30,033 bases of DNA from a virus: positions 1 to 30,033 of IMG/VR virus record IMGVR_UViG_3300047491_001578; one strand, 5' to 3'. A program made the translations under genes and the position numbers. Shown here in pieces: positions 917 through 17,865 of the stretch. Below the pieces are notes generated by a model. The model was given only the letters and a program-made list of their open reading frames with translations. It had not been told where the DNA came from and did not search any database. Position 1 is the stretch's first letter, and each line of letters begins with the position of its first letter.

Positions 917-948
917 CAAAAAACCGCCACGCAGTGCGCGTGGCGGTT
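917..948 (-). terminator. Rho-independent terminator closing the early operon
   Basis: A perfect 11-bp stem (922-932 with 938-948) and a 5-nt loop are followed on the minus strand by six T (918-923 as A on the plus strand, partly within the stem). It begins a few bases after the stop codon at 952. It should end early transcription before the methyltransferase gene. Confidence 0.85.
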
Positions 949-961
949 CGCTCAGTTCGAT
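943..961 (-). promoter_or_regulatory. Repeated box, copy 1 (toward methyltransferase)
   Basis: Reads ATCGAACTGAGCGAACCGC on the minus strand, identical over 19 nt to copies at 10191 and 15139, and over 23 nt (with the preceding TTTC) to the 15139 copy. It overlaps the last codons of the 952-1323 gene and one arm of the terminator. It points toward the methyltransferase gene. Its role as an activator or promoter element is inference from its repetition and orientation. Confidence 0.45.
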
Positions 962-1323
962 GAAAGTAAAACCCCTTGCCCGGTATCGCGCTCGAATGTG
1001 AAAGCCGGGCATTTGACGGTCTTCAAAATGGTCTGACGGCGAGTGCGCTTTTGCCGAAGCGTAACGAGGCCGTTGATATTATGCTGGCGCTCGCGGGAAT
1101 AGTATTCGTCGAACTCGCCGGTCGTCGCTCGTGCGATGTGCTTGAAACCTTTATTACCGCTGATTGCAAACTCGGTGCAGAGGCCCGGCGAATCTCCGAC
1201 TTTGCGCAGTATGCGGTCGCTGCGCAGATCGAAGCGTGTAGCGATCTCAGAGCCCTTCACCCAGCCTTCGCTCGGTGCGCTTAACAGGTACTGCTCGATG
1301 GCCTCTTTGAGTTTTTCGCACAT
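952..1323 (-). CDS. Small basic protein, possible winged-helix late regulator
   Basis: A 123-residue basic protein that I do not recognise as a named family. Residues 1-45 look helical and resemble a short winged-helix layout (helices 2-15, 24-31 and 33-41, then a WVKGSEIATRF-type segment and a beta-like stretch). The C-terminal third is rich in Arg and Lys (RQKRTRRQ). It is the last gene of the early operon, directly before the terminator, which is where Mu carries mor, the middle/late transcription activator. A role in switching on late genes is therefore attractive but rests on position only. The ribosome site before the ATG is weak, so its expression may depend on the upstream zinc-ribbon gene. 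The last codons are formed by the repeated box. Confidence 0.6.
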   Translation of the reverse strand: MCEKLKEAIEQYLLSAPSEGWVKGSEIATRFDLRSDRILRKVGDSPGLCTEFAISGNKGFKHIARATTGEFDEYYSRERQHNINGLVTLRQKRTRRQTILKTVKCPAFTFERDTGQGVLLSSN

Positions 1324-1344
1324 GCTCTATATACGCATCAGCGT

Positions 1345-1488
1345 TTATGAATTTTCACATTCACTGCAAAGTGTTCCTGCCCCCATGTCACAAAGAACAC
1401 ACCGCATTCTTTCACAGATCGGGCACGGCTCCGTTTCCATATTGGTCTGATCATCTATAACAGCTCCGCAACATTCACAGGTTTTCAT
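1345..1488 (-). CDS. 47-residue zinc-ribbon protein
   Basis: A tiny ORF whose ATG overlaps the TGA of the preceding gene (ATGA), with a good AGAGGTGA ribosome site four bases upstream, so translational coupling is likely. The product has four CxxC pairs, at residues 4-7, 22-25, 30-33 and 41-44, enough for two zinc sites, with short acidic linkers and no obvious membrane segment. The pattern fits a double zinc ribbon that could bind nucleic acid or a protein partner. No family name can be given. It sits between a GemA-position gene and a winged-helix-like gene in the early operon, a region where Mu carries host-modulating and regulatory functions. The regular cysteine spacing makes a chance ORF unlikely. 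Confidence 0.75.
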   Translation of the reverse strand: MKTCECCGAVIDDQTNMETEPCPICERMRCVLCDMGAGTLCSECENS

Positions 1489-2075
1489 GCCGTCACCTCT
1501 TCTTTGTTATCATGCTTAACGTGGTGGTGGTGATCGTGCCGGTATTTGGCCTTGGCGGCGGCGGGCTTCCATCCACGGCGGAAGTATCCGCTCGGCAGGT
1601 CGATCAGCTCGATGCCTTCATTTTTCGCCAGACGGCGGATGTGGGTATCCACCATCTGCAAAATCTTCTGTAGTAGATCCGCCGGGCAGTCATTCATGTC
1701 AGAAGGAATACCGGCCTGTATGCAGATGCCTTTGATGTAGTCCCAGCTGATCGTCTGTTTGGTGAGATATTCCAGATCCGGGATGAACTGGTTCTTCAGT
1801 ATCCAGCGGATGCGCCGCTCGGCGGCGGATGACAAGCGGTTGATCCAGTACTCATCGAATGCGATGATCGCCAGCTCAAGCATCACCGCATCGAAGTCCG
1901 TTGTCTGGTTCATTTCCTTAATGGAATAGCACCGGGTGGTTTCCAGATTGATGTGGCGGCGGAAATCGGTTTCTTCCGCTCTGCTGTTCGGGCTCTTGCC
2001 ATCCTGCTCGCAGTGCGCAATCCACGCCCTGTTGAACAGCTCGAAATATTTATAACGCTGGGCTTCGCTTAGCAT
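1485..2075 (-). CDS. Early phage protein in GemA (DUF1018) position
   Basis: A 196-residue, mostly helical soluble protein with an AAAGGATG ribosome site. Its N-terminal half (LSEAQRYKYFELFNRAW, then an Arg/His helix and a SIKEMNQTTDFDAVM segment) has the order of helices seen in GemA/DUF1018 proteins, which end the early operon of Mu-like phages just before mor. The similarity I can see is topological, not a clear sequence match. The C-terminus is basic with a His cluster (RHDHHHHVKH), perhaps a metal or nucleic-acid contact. It is followed by the zinc-ribbon gene with a 4-nt overlap. If it is GemA-like it would modulate host gene expression; otherwise its function is unknown. Confidence 0.65.
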   Translation of the reverse strand: MLSEAQRYKYFELFNRAWIAHCEQDGKSPNSRAEETDFRRHINLETTRCYSIKEMNQTTDFDAVMLELAIIAFDEYWINRLSSAAERRIRWILKNQFIPDLEYLTKQTISWDYIKGICIQAGIPSDMNDCPADLLQKILQMVDTHIRRLAKNEGIELIDLPSGYFRRGWKPAAAKAKYRHDHHHHVKHDNKEEVTA

Positions 2076-2243
2076 AATTCATCCTTTCAAAAAGCGCCCT
2101 GCGGGCTCGGGCGGTTATTTTCCCGCAGGGCAAGGATTCCCGGAGCATGGGTGGGTTTCAAAAGCACACAGACACCATGCTCCAGTCGACACCGCCCGAT
2201 GGCCGTGGTATGCCGTTTGTCTGTGTGGTGGTAGATCATGATT
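2076..2243 (-). other. Structured spacer before the GemA-position gene
   Basis: A 168-bp gap holding three inverted repeats: 10 bp (2096-2105 with 2122-2131), 9 bp (2142-2150 with 2175-2183) and 9 bp (2165-2173 with 2219-2227). On the minus strand the first hairpin is followed by GCTTTTTG, so it could be a weak terminator or attenuator inside the early operon. A 50-codon ORF (2239 to 2089, minus) spans the gap but has no ribosome site and overlaps the hairpins, so I do not call it a gene. Confidence 0.5.
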
Positions 2244-2855
2244 TCAACTCAGTGCAAGCTGCTGATATTCGTCTGAATCGCCGACGCGCTCATAAAGGCG
2301 CAGATAGGTTTTCGATCCGACAACGGTCAAACTGTTCGCGATGGCGTCCATCGCGCGCAGCCAGCGGTCATCTTCAATCTTGATCGTTCGCAGCCCCAGC
2401 ACGCGGGCCGTGCTGATCTCTCCGGCCTTGTTCATCTGGAAGGCCTGATTGACGATCGCTTTAATGTTGTCGTTGCTGTCTTTCGTCCAGTCGGTCAGGC
2501 ATTCATCGATCAGCGCCTTGGCAGCTTCGAGCTGTTCGTTAAACGCGATGTTCTCGTCGACGGCCCGGATGATTTTATAACGGCCATCGAAAGAGAAGAG
2601 CGTCACGTTGCCTTTCTTCCCGCCCATCGGCGCGTCATATTCCATTTTCGCCAGATCGCAGAATGCGGCGATATCGCGCAGCGCATTGTTTTTGAAATGC
2701 TCCACGCAGCGAGCAATCTCTTTACCGCCATGCACGAGTCCCAGTACGAGCGAGTCGCGCAACTTATCCAGCTCTTTGATATTAGCCTCCGGAATCAGAT
2801 TTCCTTTGGCATCCTGCCGGTATCCGGCAGGCACGGTTTTTTCAGTTGTGCTCAT
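2244..2855 (-). CDS. DUF3164 family Mu-like phage protein
   Basis: A 203-residue protein beginning MSTTEKTVPAGYRQDAKGNL, which matches the usual DUF3164 opening (a GYR-D-G-L segment, then a PEANIKELDKLRDSLV helix). A longer reading frame extends upstream to 2933, but this start is chosen for the family-like N-terminus and the GAAAGG ribosome site. Members occur in the early region of Mu-like phages and are sometimes mislabelled sulfate transporters; there is no membrane segment here. The middle contains a conserved-looking MGGKKGNVTLFSFDGRYKI stretch and the C-terminus is helical. The start codon shares one base with the stop of the upstream tiny membrane gene. The function is unknown; early co-expression with the transposition genes is the main clue. 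Confidence 0.85.
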   Translation of the reverse strand: MSTTEKTVPAGYRQDAKGNLIPEANIKELDKLRDSLVLGLVHGGKEIARCVEHFKNNALRDIAAFCDLAKMEYDAPMGGKKGNVTLFSFDGRYKIIRAVDENIAFNEQLEAAKALIDECLTDWTKDSNDNIKAIVNQAFQMNKAGEISTARVLGLRTIKIEDDRWLRAMDAIANSLTVVGSKTYLRLYERVGDSDEYQQLALS

Positions 2856-2995
2856 CAGTTGCCTTTCGCTGAATAATGGATGCGCGGAATAACGAACACG
2901 GCTGCGGCCAGCGCCAGCAGGCCGACCCACCACGCGACGAAGATGGCCGCCGCGAGGCAGGCGATGAATACGATGGCTCTTGATAGATGAAACAT
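2855..2995 (-). CDS. 46-residue membrane protein
   Basis: A tiny ORF with a good ribosome site (AAAGGGAG about five bases before the ATG) and a stop that overlaps the start of the DUF3164 gene by one base. Residues 6-37 are almost entirely hydrophobic (AIVFIACLAAAIFVAWW followed by GLLALAAAVFVI), giving one long or two short membrane helices, with a basic C-terminus. Position and coupling support a real gene. Phages of this type carry small early membrane proteins that alter the host envelope or exclude other phages, but the sequence does not show which. Confidence 0.7.
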   Translation of the reverse strand: MFHLSRAIVFIACLAAAIFVAWWVGLLALAAAVFVIPRIHYSAKGN

Positions 2996-3010
2996 GAGAC
3001 TCCCTTTCTT

Positions 3011-3184
3011 TTAATGGTTAAACAAACAGTGGTACAAATGGCGCGACCAGCAGATCGCCGCGATCAGGATTCCGGATCCGACAAGGCTCCCGATCACCAT
3101 CATGGCCGACACAACCAGCGACGCCGGGCAGCATTCCTCGCCGTTTTCATGGCGGAAGGTCTTCGGCTTTTTATCTTTTCGCAT
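3011..3184 (-). CDS. 57-residue one-helix membrane protein
   Basis: Starts inside the last codons of the MuB gene (14-nt overlap), with a GGGGGAGAAGG ribosome site within MuB. The product opens with a strongly basic MRKDKKPKTFRHENGEE segment, then a hydrophobic stretch at about residues 21-46 (SLVVSAMMVIGSLVGSGILI...), and a short His-rich tail. The positive-inside rule puts the N-terminus in the cytoplasm. It forms a pair with the next membrane protein between MuB and DUF3164. Its function is unknown. Confidence 0.7.
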   Translation of the reverse strand: MRKDKKPKTFRHENGEECCPASLVVSAMMVIGSLVGSGILIAAICWSRHLYHCLFNH

Positions 3185-4220
3185 AAGCCTTCTCCCCCAT
3201 CATCTGCGTGCGAACCGCCACGGCCTTGAAAAAGTGCTCTTCGGTCAGCTTCTGTTTCGACTTGGATGCGATGCGGCTGGACACCTTGAGCGTCTCAACC
3301 AGAATGCCGAGACGGCCCTGCTCATTGGCAATGGCGCCGCACTGATCCATCAGCTCTTTTGAGGCATTCGGCAGGTACTGCTCAACAATCGGCTTGATGT
3401 CCTTCGTGGCAATCATGCGCTTCAACCGGATCGGCATACCGATGCGCCCGAGGATCTGCTCGAACTGATAGCTGCTCTTGTGCATCGCATCGCTGAACCG
3501 CTGGGTTGCAATGAATGCCAGAGCGCAGCCGGTCTGGTCATGCAAGTCGCGCAGGATTTCAATGGCCACCGGCGTACTGCGACCGTCAGCAGGCATCAGC
3601 CGGTGCGCTTCGTCGATAATCAGGATGCGGTTTTTATTAAACGACCGGGTGATCCCGTCGAACATCTGCATCGCGTTCAGGTTTTTATTCACGCCAACAG
3701 ACTCGGCAATGCGGCGCAACATCATCTTAACGCCACCAATCGGCGGAGCGGCCACCAGCACACTGGTGCCGTGATTATTGGCATCGCGCCACAGCTTCGC
3801 GCTCTCCGTCTTGCCCATGCGGCTCTCGCCGATAATCAGCGTGATCGAATTGTTCGAAAGAGCGTAGTCCAGACCGGCACCGATCATCCGCGTGATCGAG
3901 TTCTCGACGATCAAATTATCCTGAATCGTTGAGCGCTCTTCGGCGATACGCTTATAGCTTTCGATGGCCGCCGTGACCTTTTCCACGCTCCCTTCGTAGG
4001 TGCCTTTCAGAACACGGTAAACGGTGCTCTTGTCATACTGAATCGCCTCACCGGCCTGCTCCAGCGTCATCCCGGCATCCAGCACATGCTGATGAAACCA
4101 CATCAGCAGGCCGCGAGCCTCTTCCGGATATCCGTTCCAGTTATGCAGATTCAGCGGAATATTGATCCGCGCCCCGTTACTGCTCGCCTTCGCCTCATCG
4201 CTCTTGGTTACATCGCTCAT
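3171..4220 (-). CDS. B: MuB-type AAA+ ATPase, transposition target selector
   Basis: MuB binds ATP and target DNA, activates the MuA transpososome and directs insertion away from the phage's own DNA. This 349-residue protein has an N-terminal helix-turn-helix (about residues 52-73, TLEQAGEAIQYDKSTVYRV), as in MuB, followed by a compact AAA domain. Walker A is GESRMGKT at 131-138, Walker B is ILIIDEAH at 199-206, and a sensor-I-like FIATQR lies at 236-241. The C-terminal helical part is also typical. It lies downstream of the transposase in the same operon; its ATG overlaps the stop of the 94-residue gene before it by 4 nt, with a GGAGG ribosome site. It is slightly longer than Mu B (312 residues). 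Confidence 0.93.
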   Translation of the reverse strand: MSDVTKSDEAKASSNGARINIPLNLHNWNGYPEEARGLLMWFHQHVLDAGMTLEQAGEAIQYDKSTVYRVLKGTYEGSVEKVTAAIESYKRIAEERSTIQDNLIVENSITRMIGAGLDYALSNNSITLIIGESRMGKTESAKLWRDANNHGTSVLVAAPPIGGVKMMLRRIAESVGVNKNLNAMQMFDGITRSFNKNRILIIDEAHRLMPADGRSTPVAIEILRDLHDQTGCALAFIATQRFSDAMHKSSYQFEQILGRIGMPIRLKRMIATKDIKPIVEQYLPNASKELMDQCGAIANEQGRLGILVETLKVSSRIASKSKQKLTEEHFFKAVAVRTQMMGEKAYAKR

Positions 4221-4501
4221 GAGCGACCTCCGTTTTCAGTGGCGGGTGGCAAGTGGCGAGTGGCGGTGTATACCTTGCTGATAACCTCTGCATTTTGCAG
4301 AAGAAAAACACGCTCGCCGATGGTTATGATCTGATGGCCGGAAGGCAGCACTGTATCCAGCGAAAAACGTAAGCCTTCAATTTCCCCGCTCGCCTTCGTT
4401 TCACGGAGAAACATTTTCCCGGTTACTTCCGTTAAATTAAATGTGACATCAATCGTGCACACTGTTGGCTGTTTTTTGACCTCTGAACTCTTCTTACTCA
4501 T
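4217..4501 (-). CDS. Small hypothetical protein between transposase and MuB
   Basis: A 94-residue protein with an AAGGAG ribosome site and a 4-nt ATGA overlap with MuB. The predicted content is mostly beta strands (TIDVTFNLTEVTGKMFL, then GLRFSLDTVL and ITIGERVFLL), suggesting a small barrel; it is soluble with no signal peptide. I do not recognise the family. The last 17 or so residues are encoded by a run of 7-bp repeats (GTGGCGG-like, 4239-4268), so the native C-terminus may originally have been shorter. Its position suggests an accessory to transposition. Confidence 0.6.
   Translation of the reverse strand: MSKKSSEVKKQPTVCTIDVTFNLTEVTGKMFLRETKASGEIEGLRFSLDTVLPSGHQIITIGERVFLLQNAEVISKVYTATRHLPPATENGGRS
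4239..4268 (+). repeat. Heptad repeat run (GTGGCNN)
   Basis: Four consecutive 7-mers: GTGGCGG, GTGGCAA, GTGGCGA, GTGGCGG. They lie in the 3' end of the 94-residue gene, on the opposite strand. Confidence 0.8.
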
Positions 4502-4528
4502 CCATTCTCCTTTTTGTGTTTTTTGCGG

Positions 4529-6580
4529 CTAATTCCTGATCATCTCGCTGATTTCATCGCTCGAAAATTCGTCAGACGCTTCATGCTGGCGCGAAGTCGC
4601 GGCTTCAAAATCTCCGCGATCCGGATCGGCCTCTTCGATCTGTCTGGCGCGGAATAACTCTTCCGGCGTGATCGGATCGCCGCGCATCACCGCCGAGTTA
4701 TGCTGGTGCATTTCCAGCTTATCCTTAATCAGTTGCTGGCCGCGCCGCGCCAGCGGTGTACGCAGTTCAGCTTCGATATGCGCCTGCCTGCCGACCTGCC
4801 GGTTGAGCGCTTCGGTATCGTTCTTGCCGACCGTCTGCCAGCGCCTTGCAAGGCCGATGAACGCCTCGCTGTCTTTGTCAGAAACAAAGCATTCGTCAAC
4901 GCAGAACGGATTAATGTGCAGCAGATAGTCGCGGCCCGCTTGCAGGTGCGTTATAAAGCCGTCGGGCGTCTGAACATCGCGGGCAAGATAACGGAACTCG
5001 CCGGGGCCGTACTCCGCATTCTGGAACGTAATCAGCCCGTCGGACTGCACCGGTCGGACAATGCCGAGACGAGCCCCGAGAATCATCGGCATGCAGCTCT
5101 TCGGCAGGCGAACCAGCAAGCCCTTTCCGGCGTTCCACACTTCGCGGGGAGACATCAGGCGGCAGCGGGCATAAAGTTCCGGCTGGCTGTGGATCAGCGC
5201 GTTAAGCGCCTGCTGCTCAGGAGGCGGCAGCGCGAACATCCGATCCATCGGAAGCCATTCGTCGAACTGCGACGAAACGCGGAACTCGGTCGCCACATAA
5301 CCGCATTCCTGCCAGCCTTCCAAATTATGTTCCGTGCGCCAGTCCAGCCGTTCATACAGTTCGGCAATCGCCGAGCAGTACTGATGGAAATCTAGGAACG
5401 GATAGCGCAGTAGCTTGGCGCGTTCCGGACTCATTGCGGCGGCGGCCTTAATCAGCTGATTGTTGTACTGCTGCATCCCGTAGATCTGCTCCGGCGAGTG
5501 GTCGCGGTTCATGCCGATCTGACCGGGGAGAGATGCCGCCGCTGTGTGCATCAGCGCGTGCTGAGATTCGAGCGCCGCTTTCAATTTAAAATTACCGCGC
5601 GGCTGGCCGATGAATAGACCCTTGTGGATCTGGTCGCTTATGATCCCGGAACGCTGCAACTTGATCGCTCCGCCGGACAGGCGCGTCAGCTGCTCTTCGA
5701 ACTCTGACCCGACCGCCGCCGTACCGTGTTCAACAACCAGCGTGCAACCGTCCGGGTGATAGCCGATATTCACCAGCACATGCGCCAGCAGCATTCGCAT
5801 ATCCACTTCCGTCAGATTGCGCAGCTTGCCGGTGTCGAGGTCTTCGCGGCGCGGCTTGATGCCGTAGGCAATCCGGCTCGCGCTCGCCACGTCCAGACAC
5901 GCCAGCTCAATCGCTCGCTGCGCGGCGCGGTTCGCACCAAAATTCAGGCGCACGTCATGCCACATATCGTCAAACTGATACATCGAACCGACCGGCGAAC
6001 CTTGGCGCGTAGAAAACACACTCGGAACAAAATCGCGGGCCGCGCCGCGCCCAATCCGGCTCGCTGTCACTTCATATTCAGTCAAGCCGCAGGTACGCAT
6101 CAGGTTCTCATACGTCCAACCACGCGGAGTCCAGTTGAACGGACAAACCACCGGCGGCATCTTGTTCGGGTGCGATTCTTTCCAGCAATCGACCCACGTC
6201 CCGACATCCTCGAAATATTTACCGCCACGGAAATCATGCAGCATCTGGCGGTAGGCTTCCTTGCTGCTCCGCTGATTCTCTTGGCAGTACGTCTTGAAAT
6301 GCTCGCCGATCGCGAGCGCGGCATTCTTGCGGCCAACCTTCGCTTTATTGATCAGAGCCTGCCAGCCGCGCCGTTTAACAGCGTAATATTTGCGCCGCAG
6401 GCTGGCGGCGGTCAGACCCTTGATGTGGCTGCACCGCGCCGCCTCTTCCACGATACCGATCGACACATTGCGGGCCGCGTCGATCCGGCGGATCACCTCC
6501 ATCGTCAGCTCAATTTCCTGACGCACCGAACCCGGCAGCATCGAGAACTGATCCACACAGACTGTTGATAAGGCGTTCAT
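4529..6580 (-). CDS. A: MuA-type DDE transposase
   Basis: Catalyses cutting and strand transfer of the phage ends for integration and replicative transposition. The 683-residue length is close to MuA (663). The N-terminal 80 residues are helical and basic, fitting the DNA-binding subdomains. The RNase-H-like core runs from about 198 to 350: first acid in MYQFDDMWHDV (D204), second at LVVEHGTAAV (E284), third in KAALESQHALMH (E338); the spacings of 80 and 54 resemble MuA (67 and 56). The second position is Glu instead of the usual Asp. A beta-barrel segment (about 495-575) follows, then a charged helical tail, which in MuA contacts MuB. The ATG has GGAG eight bases upstream. It is one of the first large genes of the early operon. 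Confidence 0.93.
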   Translation of the reverse strand: MNALSTVCVDQFSMLPGSVRQEIELTMEVIRRIDAARNVSIGIVEEAARCSHIKGLTAASLRRKYYAVKRRGWQALINKAKVGRKNAALAIGEHFKTYCQENQRSSKEAYRQMLHDFRGGKYFEDVGTWVDCWKESHPNKMPPVVCPFNWTPRGWTYENLMRTCGLTEYEVTASRIGRGAARDFVPSVFSTRQGSPVGSMYQFDDMWHDVRLNFGANRAAQRAIELACLDVASASRIAYGIKPRREDLDTGKLRNLTEVDMRMLLAHVLVNIGYHPDGCTLVVEHGTAAVGSEFEEQLTRLSGGAIKLQRSGIISDQIHKGLFIGQPRGNFKLKAALESQHALMHTAAASLPGQIGMNRDHSPEQIYGMQQYNNQLIKAAAAMSPERAKLLRYPFLDFHQYCSAIAELYERLDWRTEHNLEGWQECGYVATEFRVSSQFDEWLPMDRMFALPPPEQQALNALIHSQPELYARCRLMSPREVWNAGKGLLVRLPKSCMPMILGARLGIVRPVQSDGLITFQNAEYGPGEFRYLARDVQTPDGFITHLQAGRDYLLHINPFCVDECFVSDKDSEAFIGLARRWQTVGKNDTEALNRQVGRQAHIEAELRTPLARRGQQLIKDKLEMHQHNSAVMRGDPITPEELFRARQIEEADPDRGDFEAATSRQHEASDEFSSDEISEMIRN

Positions 6581-6592
6581 GGCGTTGCTCCG

Positions 6593-7000
6593 TTATCCGT
6601 TATCAGTTGATGGTTGTTTGGAAGTGGCGGGTGTCGCGCGGCGAGCAAAACGAGGCAAGAAGCAATCGGTCAGAAGATGCGCCAAATCATCTTTGCCGGT
6701 GAATGCCTTGCTGCGATCAATGTGTCGCTTGATACCGCAGAGATCATGAGAAAAATTTCCGTCATCTGCAGCAAGTAGCCCTTTCCAATCGAAGCTCGGA
6801 TAAGCCTTAGATACCGCATACAGATCCATCATTGTTGTCTGGCGATCATCTGGTTTTATGCAGTGCTTTTTACAAAGCACCTCATATCGTTTAGCGATCA
6901 GGCTGTGTATATCGGTAAGTGGTATCGTATTCTGATCTCTGCCCTTTGATTTCGTTTTGCCCATCTCCGTGCCTCCGTGTTCTCTGTGGTTGAAATTCAT
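6593..7000 (-). CDS. Hypothetical early phage protein
   Basis: A 135-residue soluble protein of unknown family. The ATG at 7000 overlaps the stop of the upstream gene (ATGA). However, residues 4-11 (NHREHGGTE-like) come from a dispersed 9-bp repeat, and the internal Met13 (MGKTKSKG, at 6964) has a better ribosome site (GGAGG, seven bases upstream), so the true product may start there. The body contains HSLIAKRYEVLCKKH and YPSFDWKGLLAADD segments and looks helical. The C-terminus (ARRATPATSKQP) is again built from degenerate heptad repeats. It lies directly upstream of the transposase. Confidence 0.6.
   Translation of the reverse strand: MNFNHREHGGTEMGKTKSKGRDQNTIPLTDIHSLIAKRYEVLCKKHCIKPDDRQTTMMDLYAVSKAYPSFDWKGLLAADDGNFSHDLCGIKRHIDRSKAFTGKDDLAHLLTDCFLPRFARRATPATSKQPSTDNG
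6964..6992 (-). repeat. 9-bp-type dispersed repeat (CTCCGTG-like)
   Basis: On the plus strand this reads CTCCGTGCCTCCGTG then TTCTCTGTGGTTG, a degenerate 8-9-bp direct repeat ending in GTGG. It supplies the first codons of the 135-residue gene on the minus strand. Similar runs occur at 7850 and 10138. Confidence 0.65.
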
Positions 7001-7833: not shown

Positions 7834-7849
7834 GTCTTTTTCCTTTTTT

Positions 7850-7878
7850 ATTCGTGTTAATTCGTGAAATTCGTGGGC
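7850..7878 (+). repeat. Dispersed ATTCGTG repeat
   Basis: Three copies of ATTCGTG spaced 10 and 9 bp apart (at 7850, 7860 and 7869), ending in GTGG, in the short gap between two early genes. The same 9-10-bp style occurs at 6964 and 10138. Confidence 0.75.
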
Positions 7879-7881
7879 GGT

Positions 7882-8283
7882 TTAATGAATCCCTGCGCAG
7901 ATCGGCCTGCCATACCGGGCAGAAGTGGCGACCAGCCCGCGATTATCGCGGCGCTTATTCAGCATCCACGCGGCAGTCTTAACGCAGGGCAATCCAGAGG
8001 TCAGAGGACAGAGGTCGGAGGTCGGCTGACTTCTGACTTCTGATGTCTGACTTCTGGTTCCGGCGATAGCCGGAACAGCCTGCATCGCGCAGAGGATTGC
8101 CTTACACGTCAGCGCCGTCTGGTCGAGCAGCGACCGCGCCGCGACCCGCTCGTCGGCGGTCATAATGTCTGCATCCTTAACGGTCTGGAACCGCGCCATC
8201 GCCGCGCAGGCGGCCTTGTGGGCCTTATCCAGCTCCCGCCGCGCCTTCATCAACTCCAATACTCCATCATCCATCATGCTCAT
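7882..8283 (-). CDS. Hypothetical early protein with in-frame heptad-repeat insert
   Basis: A 133-residue protein with a strong GGAGG ribosome site. Residues 1-72 form long charged helices (LMKARRELDKAHKAACAAMARF, then DERVAARSLLDQTALTCKAILCAM). Residues about 76-97 are encoded entirely by two runs of 7-bp repeats (7995-8058) and read as a low-complexity Ser/Thr/Gln stretch. The native-looking sequence resumes with CVKTAAWMLNKRRDNRG. The repeat therefore seems to have entered or expanded inside a gene without breaking the frame. No family is recognised. It is an early gene, just after two small DNA-binding proteins. Confidence 0.6.
   Translation of the reverse strand: MSMMDDGVLELMKARRELDKAHKAACAAMARFQTVKDADIMTADERVAARSLLDQTALTCKAILCAMQAVPAIAGTRSQTSEVRSQPTSDLCPLTSGLPCVKTAAWMLNKRRDNRGLVATSARYGRPICAGIH
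7995..8058 (+). repeat. Two heptad-repeat runs inside a gene
   Basis: The first run contains GTCAGAG, GACAGAG, GTCGGAG, GTCGGCT; the second contains GACTTCT, GACTTCT, GATGTCT, GACTTCT. The two are partly complementary (CAGAGG/AGAAGTCAG-like), so the RNA could fold back. Confidence 0.8.
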
Positions 8284-8297
8284 TCCATTCCTCCTGA

Positions 8298-8585
8298 TTA
8301 CCCATTTTTCCGTTGCTTAATAAAATCGATCACGTCTTGCCGTGGTATCCGCCAGCAGGGCCGCGACGCGCCGTCCGTTGAGATATCCGCTGCGTTCGGG
8401 AAAGCTCCCTCGTCGAGGTGGTGATAGACATGCTCGACCGTGCTGTTGATCGTGTAGGCGACCTGATCGGCTCGCTGGGCCAGCGAGTTATAGACAAAGA
8501 ATCCGTCCACCACCTGCCCGCCGCCCGGAGGGCGCACGCGGTCGCGGGAGAAGTCGATAAATTCGAGTTGGGCATCGGATTGCAT
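8298..8585 (-). CDS. AlpA/excisionase-like winged-helix DNA-binding protein
   Basis: A 95-residue protein. Residues about 40-90 have the layout of the small MerR/excisionase (HTH_17) fold: a turn-helix with TINSTVEHVYHHLDEGAFPNA, a wing, then WRIPRQDVIDFIK, close to the usual 'vyrli-eG-lpa ... wrIpr-dl-efl' pattern. The first 35 residues are an extra segment. Such proteins bind operator or attachment DNA. Here it is the second early gene and overlaps the preceding stop by one base (TAATG), so it may regulate early transcription as Ner does in Mu. The ribosome site is weak, suggesting coupling to the upstream gene. Confidence 0.75.
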   Translation of the reverse strand: MQSDAQLEFIDFSRDRVRPPGGGQVVDGFFVYNSLAQRADQVAYTINSTVEHVYHHLDEGAFPNAADISTDGASRPCWRIPRQDVIDFIKQRKNG

Positions 8586-8746
8586 TATTTCGCTTCTTTA
8601 ATTCGAACTCGTTTCATCAGCCGAGCTGACTGACGCTTTCCTGAAAGAACCTGCCAAAGATGGATGCGGTTAACGCCGAGGCGCTCGGCTTCTTCCTTGA
8701 TTCCGACGTATCTGAATCCGCTGGCTGTCTGTACTTTTGTGATCAT
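8585..8746 (-). CDS. 53-residue Cro/Ner-like helix-turn-helix protein
   Basis: The first early gene. The reading frame is open to 8842, but the start at 8746 is preferred: it has AAGGAA six bases upstream and removes a hydrophobic leader that would run through the control region. The product contains a helix-turn-helix (GIKEEAERLGVNRIHLWQVLSGKRQS, about residues 13-38), with the basic tail RLMKRVRIKEAK. It faces the XRE repressor across a 79-bp divergent region, the classic place for a Cro- or Ner-type early repressor. This function is inference from size, fold and position. Confidence 0.75.
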   Translation of the reverse strand: MITKVQTASGFRYVGIKEEAERLGVNRIHLWQVLSGKRQSARLMKRVRIKEAK

Positions 8747-8825
8747 TAAATTTCCTTGTGCGTAACTGTTGTTGCGAGTAACATGACAACGTTTTACCAC
8801 AAACAAACATGCGCGCAACAACAAA
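8747..8825. promoter_or_regulatory. Divergent immunity control region
   Basis: The 79-bp gap between the early operon and the repressor gene. It holds a 9-bp inverted repeat, GTTGTTGCG (8768-8776) and CGCAACAAC (8814-8822), each arm flanked inward by ACATG or CATG, plus a direct GTAAC repeat (8762 and 8778). These are candidate operators for the two DNA-binding proteins. No clear -35/-10 pair could be assigned on either strand. Confidence 0.6.
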
Positions 8826-9251
8826 ATGACCACGATTAACAAAAATCTTTCACGGGTGCTTTCCGAGGCCCGCGCCCGAACAGGACTTGGTCAGGCTGAG
8901 TTCGCAGCACGCTTCGGATTAAAGCAGCAGACCTACAATAATTACGAAAAAGGCCGCGTTCCTAAAAAACGGATGGCGCTGACTGCTCTAGCCGACGGTC
9001 TTAAGATGAGCGTGGATGATCTCCTTGGATTAAACGCTCCTTACAACAATAACAACGATGGCCGTGGTGACATTGTTGTTAATGAGCAGTCAGACATCCG
9101 CTTTGCTCTTGCGGATAGAAACTGGAAGCTCGCTTCAACCGAAAAGCTGGAAGCCATACTGGAAGCGTGTATTGAAGATCGTGATTACGGAGCCGTCGCC
9201 AAGGTCGCTGATGAACTGCTCAACCGAAAAATACAGGAGAGAATGAAATGA
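8826..9251 (+). CDS. XRE-family phage repressor
   Basis: A 141-residue protein with an N-terminal XRE/Cro-cI helix-turn-helix (about residues 8-68: RVLSEARARTGLGQAEFAARFG, then QQTYNNYEKGRVPKK and LADGLKMSVDDLLG). The C-terminal 60 residues are helical and lack the S24 peptidase Ser/Lys motifs, so RecA-driven self-cleavage is not expected; induction must work another way. It is transcribed away from the early operon, as expected of the lysogeny repressor. No ribosome site is visible before the ATG, only CAACAACAAA, so translation may be leaderless or weak. The next gene overlaps its stop by 4 nt. Confidence 0.85.
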   Translation: MTTINKNLSRVLSEARARTGLGQAEFAARFGLKQQTYNNYEKGRVPKKRMALTALADGLKMSVDDLLGLNAPYNNNNDGRGDIVVNEQSDIRFALADRNWKLASTEKLEAILEACIEDRDYGAVAKVADELLNRKIQERMK

Positions 9252-9625
9252 AAAAGCTGATCATTCTGATGGCCTGCGCGGTAGTTGCTGTTGTTTTTCT
9301 TTTTCCGATGGCATTCCTGTCTGGAAGCTGGCGTTCATGCGGATTTGTTTCCGAACCGCAACCGAAAGAGGGCGATGGCATTCTGCAGGATATTGGCCGT
9401 GGACTTGCATGGCAGATGTTTTCAGCAGGAATGATTCAGTATGACATCACACCAGTTACCATTTCTCTCGCCGGAAAAAACCGTATGCAATACTTTAGCC
9501 TTTATCTGGGCGACCGATTTTTAATGCGCTGTGAAGGAGAATGGCGATCTGTCCAAATTTTAAGCCTGCGCAAGATCGCTTTCGACAATGGGATTTTTGA
9601 GCGCGGTAAAACTCAGCTGGAATAA
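9248..9625 (+). CDS. Membrane-anchored protein of the immunity operon
   Basis: A 125-residue protein with an AGGAGAG ribosome site and 4-nt overlap with the repressor. Residues 4-26 form a hydrophobic signal anchor (LIILMACAVVAVVFLFPMAFL), with a short basic start. The rest is a small, probably extracytoplasmic domain with beta segments (MQYFSLYLGDRFLMRCEGEW). No family is recognised. Because it shares the lysogenic operon with the repressor, a role in superinfection exclusion or lysogenic conversion is plausible, but this is inference. Confidence 0.7.
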   Translation: MKKLIILMACAVVAVVFLFPMAFLSGSWRSCGFVSEPQPKEGDGILQDIGRGLAWQMFSAGMIQYDITPVTISLAGKNRMQYFSLYLGDRFLMRCEGEWRSVQILSLRKIAFDNGIFERGKTQLE

Positions 9626-9649
9626 TTAGTAGAAACGAAAGGACTCCCC

Positions 9650-10039
9650 ATGAGAATCATCAATCGGAAATCATCCATTCTCCTACTCTGTATCGCCGTT
9701 GCAGGGCTTGTTCAGGCAATTGAATTCAAAGAGATCGATGCCAATATAAAAGCTATGACCTCCGCGCAGTTCGATGCGTTTATGAATCCACTACTCGGCT
9801 CCCGCGTGTACTGGAAGGGCTGGGTAAACGATGTAGAGGCCGCTGTTGCAGGCCAGTGTAAGGTATTAATCAATATGGATAATCCGGCGAATGGGTATAG
9901 TTGCTACGATGTGGTGATTTACCTGCCTGATTACAAAGCCATGAAGCTGAAACTGAAAGAGCCGATCACGTTCAACGGCAAGATCGAAAAGGTCAGCAAA
10001 TTCATCGGAGCAACCGTCACTCTCTCTGACGTTCAGTAG
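9650..10039 (+). CDS. Secreted OB-fold-like protein of the immunity operon
   Basis: A 129-residue protein with an AAAGGA ribosome site and a Sec signal peptide (about residues 1-23, cut after VQA). The mature part resembles the tRNA_anti-like OB fold seen in secreted bacterial proteins: a strand with VYWKGWVNDVEA, then CKVLINMD, a DVVIYLP segment, and a late KEPITFNGKIEKV turn. OB folds of this kind bind oligomers, but no ligand can be named. It is the last gene before a terminator, so the repressor and two envelope proteins form one lysogenic transcription unit. A surface role in the lysogen is likely. Confidence 0.7.
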   Translation: MRIINRKSSILLLCIAVAGLVQAIEFKEIDANIKAMTSAQFDAFMNPLLGSRVYWKGWVNDVEAAVAGQCKVLINMDNPANGYSCYDVVIYLPDYKAMKLKLKEPITFNGKIEKVSKFIGATVTLSDVQ

Positions 10040-10064
10040 ATTTTCCCATTTCACAAACCCCATC

Positions 10065-10089
10065 AGCCCGCCATCGTGCGGGCTTTTTT
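10065..10089 (+). terminator. Terminator of the immunity operon
   Basis: AGCCCGC (10065-10071) pairs with GCGGGCT (10078-10084) across a 6-nt loop and is followed by TTTTTT. It lies 26 bp after the stop of the OB-fold gene. Confidence 0.9.
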
Positions 10090-10137
10090 ATTATCACGCC
10101 GTAGTCTCTGCGAAGGCGGACGTGTTTTTTGTGGCCA

Positions 10138-10168
10138 ACTTCTTTGCGCTCTCTGCGCTCTTTCGCGG
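10138..10168 (+). repeat. 9-bp direct repeat (TTTGCGCTC-like)
   Basis: TTTGCGCTC, TCTGCGCTC, TTTCGCGGA follow one another in the noncoding stretch 10090-10248, between the immunity terminator and the late block. The rest of the stretch holds the repeated box and a 6-bp hairpin (10231-10248), but no gene longer than the 26-codon ORF at 10249. Confidence 0.7.
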
Positions 10169-10190
10169 AAAAAATTCCCCTGCATTTTCT

Positions 10191-10213
10191 ATCGAACTGA
10201 GCGAACCGCACCC
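10191..10213 (+). promoter_or_regulatory. Repeated box, copy 2 (ahead of the late block)
   Basis: Starts ATCGAACTGAGCGAACCGC and continues ACCC; all 23 nt are identical to copy 3 at 15139-15161. A T-rich stretch (TTATTTTTT) follows. It precedes the first late genes, which sit where Mu has its lys promoter. The regulatory role is inference. Confidence 0.5.
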
Positions 10214-10248
10214 AGATTATTTTTTCGTAAGCGGCTTTAATTAGCCGC

Positions 10249-10329
10249 ATGAAAACGAATTTATTTGAATGGCCGTTGCCGATCTCTGACCGCTGTCCTC
10301 TGACCGCTGGCTCCCGGAGGGCGGCATGA
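10249..10329 (+). CDS. Possible 26-residue leader peptide
   Basis: ATG at 10249 lies 35 nt after the repeated box, the same spacing as between copy 3 and the protease start, and begins with the same ATGAAAAC. The reading frame is 26 codons and stops in a 4-nt ATGA overlap with the 10326 gene. The peptide begins MKTNLFEWPLPISDRC; its second half is encoded by heptad repeats. No ribosome site is visible and a hairpin abuts the ATG, so translation is doubtful. Confidence 0.25.
   Translation: MKTNLFEWPLPISDRCPLTAGSRRAA
10284..10311 (+). repeat. Heptad repeat run (TCTGACC-like)
   Basis: TCTGACC, GCTGTCC, TCTGACC, GCTGGCT, immediately ahead of the GGAGGG ribosome site of the 10326 gene. Confidence 0.75.
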
Positions 10330-10781
10330 ACAGCGTGAACCCATCCACGTTGCGCGATGTCTGCATCATCCTGCTTTCGCTCGTCGGCGTCGTCTGCCTG
10401 ATCATCAACACCATCAATAGCAACCGGCGCAAGCCGTCTGCTGATGTGGATCTGGCCAGAATCGAAATGTCCATCAACACCGTTCTGAGTAATCAGTCCG
10501 ATTTTAAAGAATCGCTGAAAACAAAGCAGGAAACCAAGGTCTGCGCCGTGCTCGTCGACCGTATCGATGGGGCGATGAATAGCCTGCGCGAAACGCTCAA
10601 TGGCAGCAAAAACCGGCACGCGGAGCATGAGAGCAAAATCAGCCGTCAGATTGGGGATGTCCACGCCCGCATGGACACGCAATCAATGAGCTTGGCCTCT
10701 ATGAGGGGCGCTCTCGAAACCTTTATGGACGAAATCAGAAACAGGAGGTCAACCCACGATGCTCAAAACAATCATTCTTAA
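10326..10781 (+). CDS. Membrane-anchored coiled-coil protein, first late gene
   Basis: A 151-residue protein with a GGAGGG ribosome site. One membrane helix at about residues 10-28 (VCIILLSLVGVVCLIINTI) is followed by a long charged helical region with heptad character (residues 40-140). This layout matches the small N-anchored coiled-coil proteins (DUF2730-like) that Mu-like phages carry between the lysis gene and gp27. A spanin or holin-accessory role is possible but unproven. The product ends in a basic tail that overlaps the next gene by 23 nt. It is the first substantial gene after the repeated box. Confidence 0.7.
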   Translation: MNSVNPSTLRDVCIILLSLVGVVCLIINTINSNRRKPSADVDLARIEMSINTVLSNQSDFKESLKTKQETKVCAVLVDRIDGAMNSLRETLNGSKNRHAEHESKISRQIGDVHARMDTQSMSLASMRGALETFMDEIRNRRSTHDAQNNHS

Positions 10782-10995
10782 CGTACTGCTGGTCTGCTAT
10801 CGCGTTGACCGCATGCTTCCCCGCGAACTGCTTAAAAGCGAATGCGAGATGCAGCTGCGCTCGCGCATTGGCGACAGCGAATTTGATACCTCCCTCGGCG
10901 AACTGACCGACGGACACTTTGTCAGCTTCGTCGAAACCAAACTCAGCGGCGACCGCAAGTATTTCATCACCGATCTGGGCCGCGCACAGCTGTAA
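10759..10995 (+). CDS. Small winged-helix-like late protein
   Basis: A 78-residue protein with a strong AGGAGGT ribosome site nine bases upstream. After a helical start (KTIILNVLLVCYRVDRMLP), the pattern LLKSECEMQLR ... FDTSLGELTDGHFVSFVETKLSGDRKYFITDLGRAQL fits a winged helix ending in a beta wing and an 'xxLTxxG' motif. Mu-like phages commonly have such a winged-helix protein just before gp27, of unknown function. Assignment to that group is by fold and position. Confidence 0.65.
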   Translation: MLKTIILNVLLVCYRVDRMLPRELLKSECEMQLRSRIGDSEFDTSLGELTDGHFVSFVETKLSGDRKYFITDLGRAQL

Positions 10996-11010
10996 CGAAA
11001 GGGAAAAGCC

Positions 11011-11244
11011 ATGAACCGACTGAGCATAGGAAGTGTGATCGCCGCCATCTGTTCGATGGGAAGAACCGATCGTTATACGGTTCCGCTTGATCTTGGAAGA
11101 TCACCGATCCGATCCAGCCATAAGCACGGCGGCGGTCGCGGTGGAAGACCCCATATTTCCCGGAATGCCATGCCCGGCAACCTGCGCATCGCAGGCGACT
11201 ATTTCCGAGCACACCACGAACTCTGCCGAAAGGGTGCAGCGTAA
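11011..11244 (+). CDS. Small basic hypothetical protein
   Basis: A 77-residue, Arg/Gly/His-rich protein with a GAAAGGGAAAA ribosome site, whose stop overlaps the next start (TAATG). The centre, SSHKHGGGRGGRPHIS, is flexible and positively charged, which suggests nucleic-acid contact. No family is recognised. Its position directly before the small terminase and its tight packing support expression. Confidence 0.55.
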   Translation: MNRLSIGSVIAAICSMGRTDRYTVPLDLGRSPIRSSHKHGGGRGGRPHISRNAMPGNLRIAGDYFRAHHELCRKGAA

Positions 11245-11765
11245 TGGCCAAACCAAGATCAGACTCCAAACTCTTCACCCTGCCGATAGAAGACCAGCTC
11301 TGGGCCTTCGAGCTGCTCAAACGCGCCAGCTACAAACAGGCGCAGGCAGCCATCAGTAAAAAGCTCAATATCGAAATCTCTATCGCCGCTCTTTCCAATG
11401 CTTGGAATGAATGGAGCCGCAAGGAACTCGAAGAGCGCGTGCTGAAAAGCAAAGGCGCGGCAGACGATGTTCTGCAACTGATCGACAATCCTGATCAACT
11501 CGACGCGGCCCTCGCGCTGGCACTCAAGCAGAGCGCCTTTGAAATGGTCATGCAGGGAGGCGACCCGAAGACCATCAAAAACTTCTGCACCATCCTGCTC
11601 AACGATCAGAAGCTGAAACACGATCAGGCCGCGCTCGACCTGAAACTTCGCCAGTACGAAGACCAGATCGCCGTCATGAAGAACGATCTCGCCAAAGGCA
11701 AAGCCAGCGGCGGCATGACCGTCGAGGCCATTGAACAGATGGAAGCCAACCTGAAACTGCTCTGA
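11244..11765 (+). CDS. DUF3486 family protein (Mu gp27-like), small terminase
   Basis: A 173-residue protein of the DUF3486 type, considered the small terminase or DNA-recognition partner in Mu-like phages. The N-terminus has a helix-turn-helix-like region (residues 13-50: LPIEDQLWAFELLKRASYKQA, then a SKKLNIEISIAALSNAW segment). A long helical stretch follows (DQAALDLKLRQYEDQIAVMKNDLAK) that should form an oligomerising coiled coil. It lies immediately before the large terminase, with a one-base stop/start overlap. In Mu this protein starts headful packaging from the phage end. Confidence 0.85.
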   Translation: MAKPRSDSKLFTLPIEDQLWAFELLKRASYKQAQAAISKKLNIEISIAALSNAWNEWSRKELEERVLKSKGAADDVLQLIDNPDQLDAALALALKQSAFEMVMQGGDPKTIKNFCTILLNDQKLKHDQAALDLKLRQYEDQIAVMKNDLAKGKASGGMTVEAIEQMEANLKLL

Positions 11766-13204
11766 TGAGTGAAAAAACATCCAGCCCTAAACCGACCGCC
11801 TTCTTCCTGCCGTATCAGGCGAAATGGATTCGCGACAACTCCAAGCTCAAGCTGATGGAGAAAAGCCGCCAGATCGGATTGAGCTGGTCGACGGCCTATC
11901 GGCTGGTGCGCGAAAAGTCGAAGGTCGGCGTTAAGTTCGACGCGTGGGTTTCCAGCCGCGATGACATTCAGGCACGGCTGTTTCTTGAGGACTGCAAGGC
12001 CTTTGCAAACATTTTTAAAATCGCGGGGGAGGATCTCGGTCTGCAGGTGATCGATCCGGAACGGAAAATCAGCGCGTATGTGCTGCAATTTGCCAATGGG
12101 GTGAGGATTAACTCCATGAGTTCTAACCCGGACGCACAGGCAGGCAAGCGGGGCGATCGCGTCTTAGACGAGTTCGCCCTGCATCCCGACCCGCGAAAAC
12201 TCTACGCCATCGCTTATCCCGGCATCACCTGGGGCGGAAGCATGGAAATCATCAGCACGCATCGCGGCAGCAACAACCTGTTTAATGAGCTGGTGCAGGA
12301 AATCAAATTCAAGGACAACCCGAAGAAAATCAGCCTGCACACCGTCACGCTGCAGGATGCGCTCAACCAGGGCTTTCTCGAAAAACTAAAAGCCAAGTTG
12401 CGCGAGGCTGGCGGCGACGATGAGCGACTCGGCATGGATGAAGCGCAGTATTTCGAGATGGTGCGTTCCGGCTGTCCGGACGAAGAGACCTTTCAGCAGG
12501 AATACATGTGCAACCCGCAGGATGACAACTCGGCCTTTCTGTCTTACGACCTGATCCGTGGCTGTGAATATAAAGCCACCGAGACATGGGAATACACACT
12601 CGCCCAGCTCGCCGCCTGTGGAAACCCGCTCTATCTCGGCGTGGACGTGGGCCGCAAGCACGACCTCACCGTCATGTGGCTTGACGAAAAGGTCGGCGAC
12701 ACATCCTTCACGCGGCGGTTGATCGAATTGAAAAACAAAACCTTCGATGCGCAGGAAGCCGAACTCTATCAGCTGCTCTCCCTGCCGAACCTGCGCCGCG
12801 CCTGCATCGATAGCTCCGGAATTGGCCGACAGTTTGCCGAGCGCGCCCAGCAGCGCTTTGGAACCTACAAGGTTGAAGCCGTCACCTTTACCGGCCCGGT
12901 TAAAGAAGAGCTGGCCTATCCGCTGCGGGCTTCGTTCGAAGACCGCACCAACCGGATACCGAGCAGCGAGTTCATCCGCGCGGATCTGCGCGCCGTCAAA
13001 AAAGAGACTACATCCTCGGGAAACATCCGCTTTACCGCCGATCGCGGCAAGAACGGCCACTCCGACCGCTTCTGGGCACGCGCTCTCGCGCTACATGCCG
13101 GGAAGATGCCCGAGTCAAATACCATGCCCCAGCGCTTTACCACCGGCAACGCCGCCAAACGCAACGCCCGGCGCGACCGCCGCAACAGGAGAATGATCGG
13201 ATGA
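11765..13204 (+). CDS. Large terminase (Mu gp28-like)
   Basis: The packaging motor: an ATPase that pumps DNA into the prohead and a nuclease that cuts it. In this 479-residue protein the ATPase has a SRQIGLSW Walker A variant at 34-41, typical of this family, and Walker B VLDEFA at 133-138. The RNase-H-like nuclease has acids at D294 (LGVDVGRKHD), D349 (ACIDSSGIG) and D434 (HSDRFWA). Mu packages by headful cutting and includes flanking host DNA. The tail is very basic (NAAKRNARRDRRNRRMIG). The next gene overlaps its stop by 4 nt. Confidence 0.93.
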   Translation: MSEKTSSPKPTAFFLPYQAKWIRDNSKLKLMEKSRQIGLSWSTAYRLVREKSKVGVKFDAWVSSRDDIQARLFLEDCKAFANIFKIAGEDLGLQVIDPERKISAYVLQFANGVRINSMSSNPDAQAGKRGDRVLDEFALHPDPRKLYAIAYPGITWGGSMEIISTHRGSNNLFNELVQEIKFKDNPKKISLHTVTLQDALNQGFLEKLKAKLREAGGDDERLGMDEAQYFEMVRSGCPDEETFQQEYMCNPQDDNSAFLSYDLIRGCEYKATETWEYTLAQLAACGNPLYLGVDVGRKHDLTVMWLDEKVGDTSFTRRLIELKNKTFDAQEAELYQLLSLPNLRRACIDSSGIGRQFAERAQQRFGTYKVEAVTFTGPVKEELAYPLRASFEDRTNRIPSSEFIRADLRAVKKETTSSGNIRFTADRGKNGHSDRFWARALALHAGKMPESNTMPQRFTTGNAAKRNARRDRRNRRMIG

Positions 13205-14775
13205 AAAATCTAAAGAAACAGATCAAGAGCATTAACGCCGCGCGGTCGCAGTACAATCCGCTGCGCGGCATCACGCTGCAGCGAGCCGTCTCGCTACTTG
13301 AAGAGGGCGAGCGCGGCATCTACGCCGATCTGCAATGGCTCTACCGCACCATCGAGAAACGGGATGCTGTTCTGCGCGCCCTCAAGCGCCGCCGATCCGC
13401 CGCCCTGATGAAGCTTGAATGGAATATCAAGACTGTCCCGGCGGATCAGATGCCCGACGGTGTGACCGAAGAGCAGGCCGAATCCCAGGCCGAGGCGCTG
13501 CGCAAACTCTATGAGCAGATCGAAAACCTCTACGCCGCCATCAAGGCACTCGCCTTGGCTGAGTTCAGGGGCTTTGCCCATCTCGAAAAAATCTATATCA
13601 ACGATTCACCGGCTCCGGACGCCGTCCGCCGTCTCGAACCGCTGGCGCAGTGGCACTGGTGCCGCGACGGCTATGACGGCCCGTGGCTGTTTAACCCCGA
13701 GCTGCATGCTTCCATCCACTCTGCCGACGAGGTGGACACCGCGCATCTTGTCATCCGCGAGATCGACGACCCGATCGATGAAATCGCTCTGATTGCTTTC
13801 CTGCGGAAAAACATGAGCCAGAAAGACTGGGATGGTTTCGTCGAGGTCTTTGGCATCCCGGATATCTTTTTTGAAATGCCGCAGGGCATGACCACTGAGC
13901 AGACCAAGGAATGGATGGCCACTGCCGAGCAGCTTGCCGGGGATGGACAGGGCGCAATTCCCAACGGCGGCAAGGTGCAGGCCGTCGGCGGCGACGTGCG
14001 CGGCACCAATCCGTTTGAAAGTCACATCAGCTATCAGGATACCTGCGTCGTGCTGGCCGGAACCGGCGGTAAGCTCACCATGCTGTCTGAGCCGACCGGC
14101 CTCGGCGAAGGCGCAACCGGTGCGCACGATGATGCTTTTGATGATCTGGCCGCCGAAGAGGCCCGCGAGATTTCCGAGCTGCTTCAAAACTCGCTGGATA
14201 AGCCGCTGCTGTCCGCGCAATTCCCCGGTCAGCCCGTTCTGGCTTACTTCGACTTGTCCGCCCGGACTGAGGAAGATGTCACGGAAATCATCGGACAGAT
14301 CAAGAGTCTGTCCGAAGCGGGATATGAGGTAAATCCGGAGAAAGTCACCGAACGCACCGGTTACCATGTGGAACTGAAGTCGCAGACGGTGGCCGCACCG
14401 TTCGACATCCGGCAATCGGAAATGAGCAACCGGAAATCTCTGCCCTGGTACCGGAGACTGTTCAATCGTCAGGTTCAACCGAATACTGACCTGCAGGAAC
14501 AGCTTCTGAAAAACGCCCGCACAGCCATTGCAACAGCGGTAAAAAATGACATGGAGCCGGTCGCCGCCCGCCTCGCCGAGATTCTCAACGCGGATCTGTC
14601 CGATGATGAACTGCTGCAGGCCTTGGAAAAGTTTCAGGTTGAAGAGCTGCCGAAGTTTGCAAAGGACATCCTTGCCGCTCCGTCGGCGGTGGACGCCATA
14701 GCCGACACCCTCAGTGCCGGGCTTTTTAACGGGATGGATGACGTGGCGAGTGGCAGGGGGCAGGTGGCAAAATGA
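13201..14775 (+). CDS. DUF935 portal protein (Mu gp29-like)
   Basis: Forms the portal ring at the head vertex through which DNA enters. The 524-residue length fits DUF935. Visible family features are an N-terminal ARSQYNPLRGITLQRAV segment, a RDAVLRALKRRRSAALMKLEW strand-helix, AEFRGFAHLEKIY, LAQWHWCRDGYDGPWLFNPE, and a central NMSQKDWDGFVEVFGIPDIF with the following helix. Overlaps the terminase gene by 4 nt (ATGA). The last codons (VASGRGQVAK) are encoded by four heptad repeats (14743-14770), so the native C-terminus was probably altered. No F-type gene follows directly, unlike in Mu. Confidence 0.92.
   Translation: MKNLKKQIKSINAARSQYNPLRGITLQRAVSLLEEGERGIYADLQWLYRTIEKRDAVLRALKRRRSAALMKLEWNIKTVPADQMPDGVTEEQAESQAEALRKLYEQIENLYAAIKALALAEFRGFAHLEKIYINDSPAPDAVRRLEPLAQWHWCRDGYDGPWLFNPELHASIHSADEVDTAHLVIREIDDPIDEIALIAFLRKNMSQKDWDGFVEVFGIPDIFFEMPQGMTTEQTKEWMATAEQLAGDGQGAIPNGGKVQAVGGDVRGTNPFESHISYQDTCVVLAGTGGKLTMLSEPTGLGEGATGAHDDAFDDLAAEEAREISELLQNSLDKPLLSAQFPGQPVLAYFDLSARTEEDVTEIIGQIKSLSEAGYEVNPEKVTERTGYHVELKSQTVAAPFDIRQSEMSNRKSLPWYRRLFNRQVQPNTDLQEQLLKNARTAIATAVKNDMEPVAARLAEILNADLSDDELLQALEKFQVEELPKFAKDILAAPSAVDAIADTLSAGLFNGMDDVASGRGQVAK
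14743..14770 (+). repeat. Heptad repeat run at the portal 3' end
   Basis: GTGGCGA, GTGGCAG, GGGGCAG, GTGGCAA in tandem; they encode the last residues of the portal and contain an AGGTGG that could serve as a ribosome site for the ORF starting at 14772. Confidence 0.8.
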
Positions 14776-15196
14776 AGTCAAAAACAGCCATGCCTCAAAA
14801 ACCGCCAGAAACGGCCCTGTGGGCTCGACGGATTTTTTCCGCCCGTATGTCCACGAAAACGGCAGGTCGTAAAAATGCAATGGCTTTCCGGCGTTTTGCA
14901 AAACAAGTCCGCCGTGCGGATGGGTGTCGGGTGTCAAGTGGCGAGTGGCCAGATGAAAAACAGCCGTATTCGGTCATCAGTCGTCCCGTGGCGCGGCGAA
15001 GCCTTTGGCGTAGACGGCTGTCATCCGTCCTCCGTCTTCGCTGGTACAGCCTCGCCCTCCATTTCAAACGCTGCCAGATGCCATCTGCACGCCACTCGAC
15101 ACCCGCCACTCGACACTTGAAATCGCTCTGCGATTTTCATCGAACTGAGCGAACCGCACCCGGAAATGTTTTTTGAAAAGGAGTTGAATCATCACC
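14776..15196 (+). other. Repeat-rich spacer before protease I
   Basis: A 421-bp stretch with no convincing gene. An open frame (14772-15176, 134 codons) starts in a 4-nt overlap with the portal stop, but its product is extremely Arg-rich, resembles no known protein, and passes through three heptad runs; I consider it doubtful. The stretch contains heptads at 14924-14951 (GTGTCGG GTGTCAA GTGGCGA GTGGCCA), 15020-15040 (GTCATCC GTCCTCC GTCTTCG) and 15091-15118 (GCCACTC GACACCC GCCACTC GACACTT), a short hairpin at about 15119-15135 (AAATCGC/GCGATTT), and the repeated box at 15139. In Mu this interval holds genes F and G; here both are displaced or missing. Confidence 0.7.
15139..15161 (+). promoter_or_regulatory. 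Repeated box, copy 3 (ahead of protease I)
   Basis: Starts ATCGAACTGAGCGAACCGC, followed by ACCC; 23 nt identical to copy 2. A T-run (GTTTTTTG) and AAAAGGAG follow, then the protease start 35 nt downstream. It corresponds in position to the Mu PI late promoter. Confidence 0.5.
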
Positions 15197-17833: not shown

Positions 17834-17837
17834 AACT

Positions 17838-17865
17838 CGAAACTCTGAACTGAGAACCGAACCCC
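17838..17865 (+). repeat. Heptad repeat run ahead of the DUF1320 gene
   Basis: CGAAACT, CTGAACT, GAGAACC, GAACCCC directly before the ATG. The middle (GAACTGAG then AACCG) resembles the repeated box with two bases missing. No ribosome site is visible. Confidence 0.7.

Follow-up and report, generated by a model that had tools for sequence, protein, structure and literature searches.

A direct-repeat box at the late-region start and ahead of the head-protease gene of three Mu-like phages, a probable switch for virion genes

In phage Mu itself, late control is understood in detail, with C-dependent promoters at the lys, I, P and mom genes (PMC4461284). Late promoters of the Mu-like type normally remain off for want of an activator, as established for Mu (PMC4461284). 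The C site is located just upstream of the −35 position (PMC4461284, PMC4287176), and both Mor and C recognize dyads; that of Mor in Mu extends from −51 to −36 (PMC4287176). Our literature search found no report on late control in Mu-like phages of Verrucomicrobiota.

Here we analyze a stretch of 30,033 bases that constitutes a single virus record (IMG/VR IMGVR_UViG_3300047491_001578), hereafter the window. A short box stands about 54 bases before both the first late gene and the head-protease gene in the window phage and two related Mu-like phages, and we therefore consider it a probable switch for virion genes. The hosts of these three phages are Verrucomicrobiota-type bacteria.

Gene layout and copies of the box

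Judged by its gene content and order, the window phage is Mu-like, with leftward early genes and rightward late genes, the latter including terminase, Mu portal and Mu protease I (Table 1). We note that the predicted tail-fibre gene (21049-22386) contains three in-frame repeats of ~189-228 nt each at 21569-22166.

Table 1. Features of the window and orthologous box sites in related phages
Feature	Position	Strand	Remarks
D12-class N6-adenine DNA methyltransferase (PF02086)	1..765	minus	Downstream of box copy 1
Intrinsic terminator after ORF 952-1323	921..949	minus	Shares AACCGC with box copy 1
Box copy 1	943..961	minus	Overlaps end of ORF 952-1323 and terminator 5' arm; regulatory role uncertain
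Candidate activator, small protein	952..1323	minus	Predicted winged-helix N-terminal domain
DUF3164 gene	2244-2933		Leftward early gene
MuB-like ATPase	3171-4220		Leftward early gene
683-codon ORF in transposase position	4529-6580		Leftward early; no Pfam match, homologues in all relatives
cro/C1-type HTH repressor gene	8826-9251		
Intrinsic terminator	10065..10084	plus	Upstream of box copy 2
Box copy 2	10191..10209	plus	Core AACTGAGCGAACCGC starts 10195; probable first late promoter element, Plys-like position
Leader ORF, 26 aa	10249..10329	plus	Starts 54 nt after copy 2 core start
First late gene proper	10326..10781	plus	Holin-like position; G009 homologue 31% identical
Box copy 3	15139..15157	plus	Core starts 15143; probable protease I promoter element, PI-like position
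Mu-like protease I (PF10123 Mu-like_Pro, phrog_328)	15197..16210	plus	
Orthologues of box copy 2	L015:6190; G009:C7:90555		Late start
Orthologues of box copy 3	L015:11579; G009:C7:95481		53 nt ahead of protease I ATG

A preliminary description of this DNA had listed three exact copies of the 19-mer ATCGAACTGAGCGAACCGC, and their coordinates and strands are all borne out. The window holds no further copies at up to three mismatches, and three matches occurred in none of 100 dinucleotide shuffles (mean 0.03). Repeat comparison confirms that the copies also share the extensions described earlier: 23 nt, TTTCATCGAACTGAGCGAACCGC, are common to copies 1 and 3 (943-965 and 15135-15157), while ATCGAACTGAGCGAACCGCACCC is common to copies 2 and 3, which are 73% alike over 85 nt (10172-10256 and 15120-15204). 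Copy 2 lies ~105 nt past the terminator at 10065-10084. A fourth site, corresponding to that at P in Mu, had previously gone unseen, and in the window we likewise find none that rises above the shuffle level; the box is also absent from the other late units of the 30 kb fragment.

Conservation of the box in related phages

A search via the terminase recovered two IMG/VR contigs, L015 (73% identical) and L016 (72%), and sampling the phylum to which locus L005, a Verrucomicrobiota genome, belongs yielded a prophage in genome G009. The terminase, MuB and methyltransferase of the G009 prophage are 74%, 88% and 82% identical to those of the window, respectively. A diverged form of the box, CSAACYSASCSAAMCGC, is present in both L015 and the G009 prophage, once where the late region begins and once immediately ahead of protease I. 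In L015, blind repeat finding, for which the window box was not used as a reference, returned a 28-nt sequence, CCCCCAACTCACCCAACCGCGTCCGGCC, repeated exactly at 6185 and 11574, corresponding to the late-region start and the gap before protease I; AACTSASCSAACCGCNNCC is common to this repeat and the window box. The late start of G009 carries AACTCAGCCAACCGC, and a copy with two mismatches, AACCCAGCCAAACGC, precedes its protease I. Among ten Verrucomicrobiota genomes (~38 Mb), the exact core AACTSASCSAACCGC has a single match, the G009 late start.

Since the degenerate pattern was derived from the comparison itself, the unmodified window 19-mer was tested too. Its best matches over the four orthologous gaps sum to 52 of 76 (shuffle mean 43, maximum 50), a score reached by none of 1000 dinucleotide shuffles and by none of 2000 sets of stretches drawn at random from these phages. 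On these sequence comparisons, the box is real and conserved, and at two places it is very probably regulatory. The window phage, L015 and G009 are the only box-bearing phages found, and no box is seen in the late gaps of the wider relatives L016, G148, G428 and the L168/L169 phage. A wider family of box-bearing phages was considered and rejected: the degenerate core matches 38 IMG/VR stretches, about the number estimated by chance, and the sole contig with two copies among them is that of L015.

The preliminary description had named a dispersed host repeat as the main alternative, and an intergenic repeat of this kind could have settled by chance in the largest gaps of the phage. In fact, short repeats of host type (GTGGCAAGTGGC, CTGACCTCTGACC and others) crowd the gaps in both the window and L015, and the box adjoins them. 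However, no IMG/VR contig besides the window contains the 19-mer, and 84,980 GTDB genomes yield three contigs from unrelated organisms with one copy each at unrelated loci, whose flanks show no resemblance and read as ordinary coding sequence. Because the window is one virus record, copies in a host genome could be counted in relatives only, and there the single exact core match in the 2.6 Mb of the G009 genome is the prophage site. Numerous host copies unrelated to phage genes were found neither in IMG/VR nor in GTDB nor in the ten Verrucomicrobiota genomes, and the positions and spacing of the box are orthologous across the three phages. A host repeat is therefore disfavored and, in our estimate, very improbable.

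We note separately that repeat families of host type (GTGGCAAGTGGC, CAGAGGTCAGAGG, AACTCGAAACTCTGAAC) occupy window gaps and some ORF ends. Host-type repeats are located in the window at 4239-4264, 6623-6647, 7994-8026, 14743-14949, 15086-15110, 17834-17858 and 18568-18592; L015 contains the same families and GTAAGGGCGAAAAATCTTTCGCCC at ten places.

Box anatomy, spacing and possible roles

The aligned sites read C-S-AAC-T-S-A-S-C-S-AACCGC, a direct repeat of the form CSAAC-N4-CSAAC(C)GC with a period of 9 bp. In the window, the base S ahead of AAC is G in either half, and in L015 and G009 it is C in either half, an agreement to be expected of two half-sites read by identical subunits. From the core start (first A) to the ATG, the distance in the window, L015 and G009 is 54, 54 and 55 nt at the late start, and 54, 53 and 53 nt at protease I. 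At the protease I sites this ATG is the start of protease I itself, while at the late start it belongs to a leader ORF of 26, 79 and 23 codons, respectively. The leader sequences are unrelated, and in all three phages the leader stop overlaps the start of the next gene (ORF 10326-10781 in the window) as ATGA.

Comparison with Mu (NC_000929) reveals parallels in placement: (I) the box occupies the places of Plys and PI, ahead of the first late genes and in the stretch from the portal/neck genes to protease I, (II) it is found at several late units of the same phage, like the C sites, and (III) if transcription starts near the ATG, the box would stand ~40-54 nt upstream of that start, in line with the position of the C site. 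In contrast, the sequence of the box is unrelated to the Mu C site, its 9-bp direct repeat has no dyad symmetry in the aligned sites, unlike the Mor and C dyads, and neither a Pmom-like nor a PP-like site is supported. At E ≤ 1, no Mor/C-family protein (PF08765) was detected in the window, L015 and L016, each of these three being a fragment, or in G009 or the record of L169. The C-type late regulon suggested in the preliminary description is thus retained as to its lys- and I-like positions but not in the strict sense; with neither a dyad nor a Mor/C-family protein found, we do not class the box system as a C regulon, and it works like one at most.

Taken at the sequence level, the box is probably a cis element of the phage late promoters, at two sites. 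A phage-made DNA-binding protein would bind the box and recruit or activate host RNA polymerase at the late start and at protease I. Transcription would start near the ATG, which would put the box between about −54 and −40, comparable to the Mor site in Mu. An intrinsic terminator is found between box and ATG at two copies, window copy 1 and L015 copy a (the late copy of L015 adjoins the terminator AACCGCGTCCGGCCCCCGGCGCGGTTTTTT, as read from the sequence). Such terminators, upstream of the start, would insulate it from read-through without blocking initiation. A clear common −10 hexamer cannot be defined across the sites; the candidates TTTAAT/TTGAAT/TTTGAT, 41-47 nt past the core start in the window copies, are absent from some sites and were rejected.

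The constant 53-55 nt to the start codon and the coupled leader ORF would also suit an element acting in the 5' untranslated part of the leader and protease mRNAs, for example the site of a translational or antitermination factor, with transcription beginning ahead of the box, and two copies adjoin intrinsic terminators with AACCGC as a stem arm. Against it, no hairpin is common to all copies, the AACCGC-GCGGTT stem occurs in just two of seven, and the box lies clear of any ribosome-binding site. We consider this explanation unlikely.

A conserved site near late promoters could equally act negatively, as an operator through which the phage repressor or another protein silences these promoters in the prophage, and a cro/C1-type HTH gene is indeed present (Table 1). 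Yet the early divergent control region (8585-8842), the expected target of a repressor, contains no box, and late promoters of the Mu type are normally off for lack of an activator, as in Mu (PMC4461284). Silencing through the box thus appears quite improbable. Returning to the late-promoter reading, the comparisons establish the box sequence, its conservation at the two orthologous places of three phages, its spacing, the coupled leader ORF and its absence from hosts; action in DNA as a promoter or activator site, late expression and the choice of a candidate binding protein are inferred.

Copy 1 is different. The stop codon of ORF 952-1323 falls inside it, and it supplies the 5' arm of the terminator, whose stem (949-921, 13 pairs) is followed by a T-run. 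The nearest ATG is 48 nt off and uncoupled to the methyltransferase, a spacing unlike that of the other sites, and in G009 neither box nor terminator lies between the 952-1323 homologue and the methyltransferase. Of the three late control points proposed earlier, those at the late start and protease I, kept in L015 and G009 with constant spacing, are supported, whereas the one at the methyltransferase is not. Copy 1 does precede the methyltransferase, but given its overlap with stop codon and terminator, its different spacing and its absence from G009, a mom-like role of this gene is not supported. Copy 1 may have lost its function, or it may serve the methyltransferase as an additional site confined to this lineage.

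A candidate activator and the portal-protease gap

The structural model of the 952-1323 protein comprises a winged helix (residues 1-66) and C-terminal helices, with a pLDDT of 75 from four sequences. Compared with NiaR-type domains, the model gives a Z of 6.1 and 1.7 Å over 56 residues; matches to solved winged-helix domains being moderate (best Z 6.6 and 6.1), we name no family. A viral fold search with the model returned nothing below E 0.01, and no relatives were found among the phages of the annotated collection. Unlike Mor and C, the protein is a predicted winged helix with C-terminal helices and has no sequence match to PF08765.

Its gene nevertheless follows a weakly GemA-like gene, as mor follows gemA in Mu, and homologues do so in several relatives. 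GemA identity of the window gene (1485-2075) was examined and rejected, being not significant for the window protein and weak in the L168 homologue (E 0.072). In G009, two 952-1323 paralogues stand side by side (C7:78794-79156 and 79427-79744, minus), an arrangement reminiscent of the Mor and C pair of Mu. Homologues are also present in G148 (51% identical), G428 and L016, yet no recognizable box is seen there; in these phages the box site may have diverged, or another protein may act.

On the basis of the model and gene position, the winged-helix protein is a first, tentative candidate for the box-binding protein, and the box thereby offers a specific, testable site with a candidate partner. 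A fuller picture, in which Mu-like Verrucomicrobiota phages possess a late regulon parallel to that of Mu, with a winged-helix activator in the mor position, a direct-repeat operator and near-leaderless late mRNAs with a short coupled leader ORF, is more doubtful. If true, the architecture of the Mu late regulon would have been kept while both activator and site were exchanged.

A further element was observed downstream of the portal gene, and upstream of protease I wherever protease I was located. It is a TGCAA-N16-TGCAA pair (21-bp period), mostly within GTTTTGCAA/AAAATGCAA, at 14876-14901 in the window, L015:11467, G009:C7 ~95237, L009:10854 and L254:5651, and also in G148, G428 and L253. 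Each of these eight phages has exactly one pair on the coding strand (chance ~0.01-0.09 per record). The pair is absent in Mu and L016; in Mu, the gap between portal and protease I holds the strong gyrase site. Two readings of the TGCAA pair are conceivable, a central element of the gyrase type or a brief stretch of conserved coding sequence.
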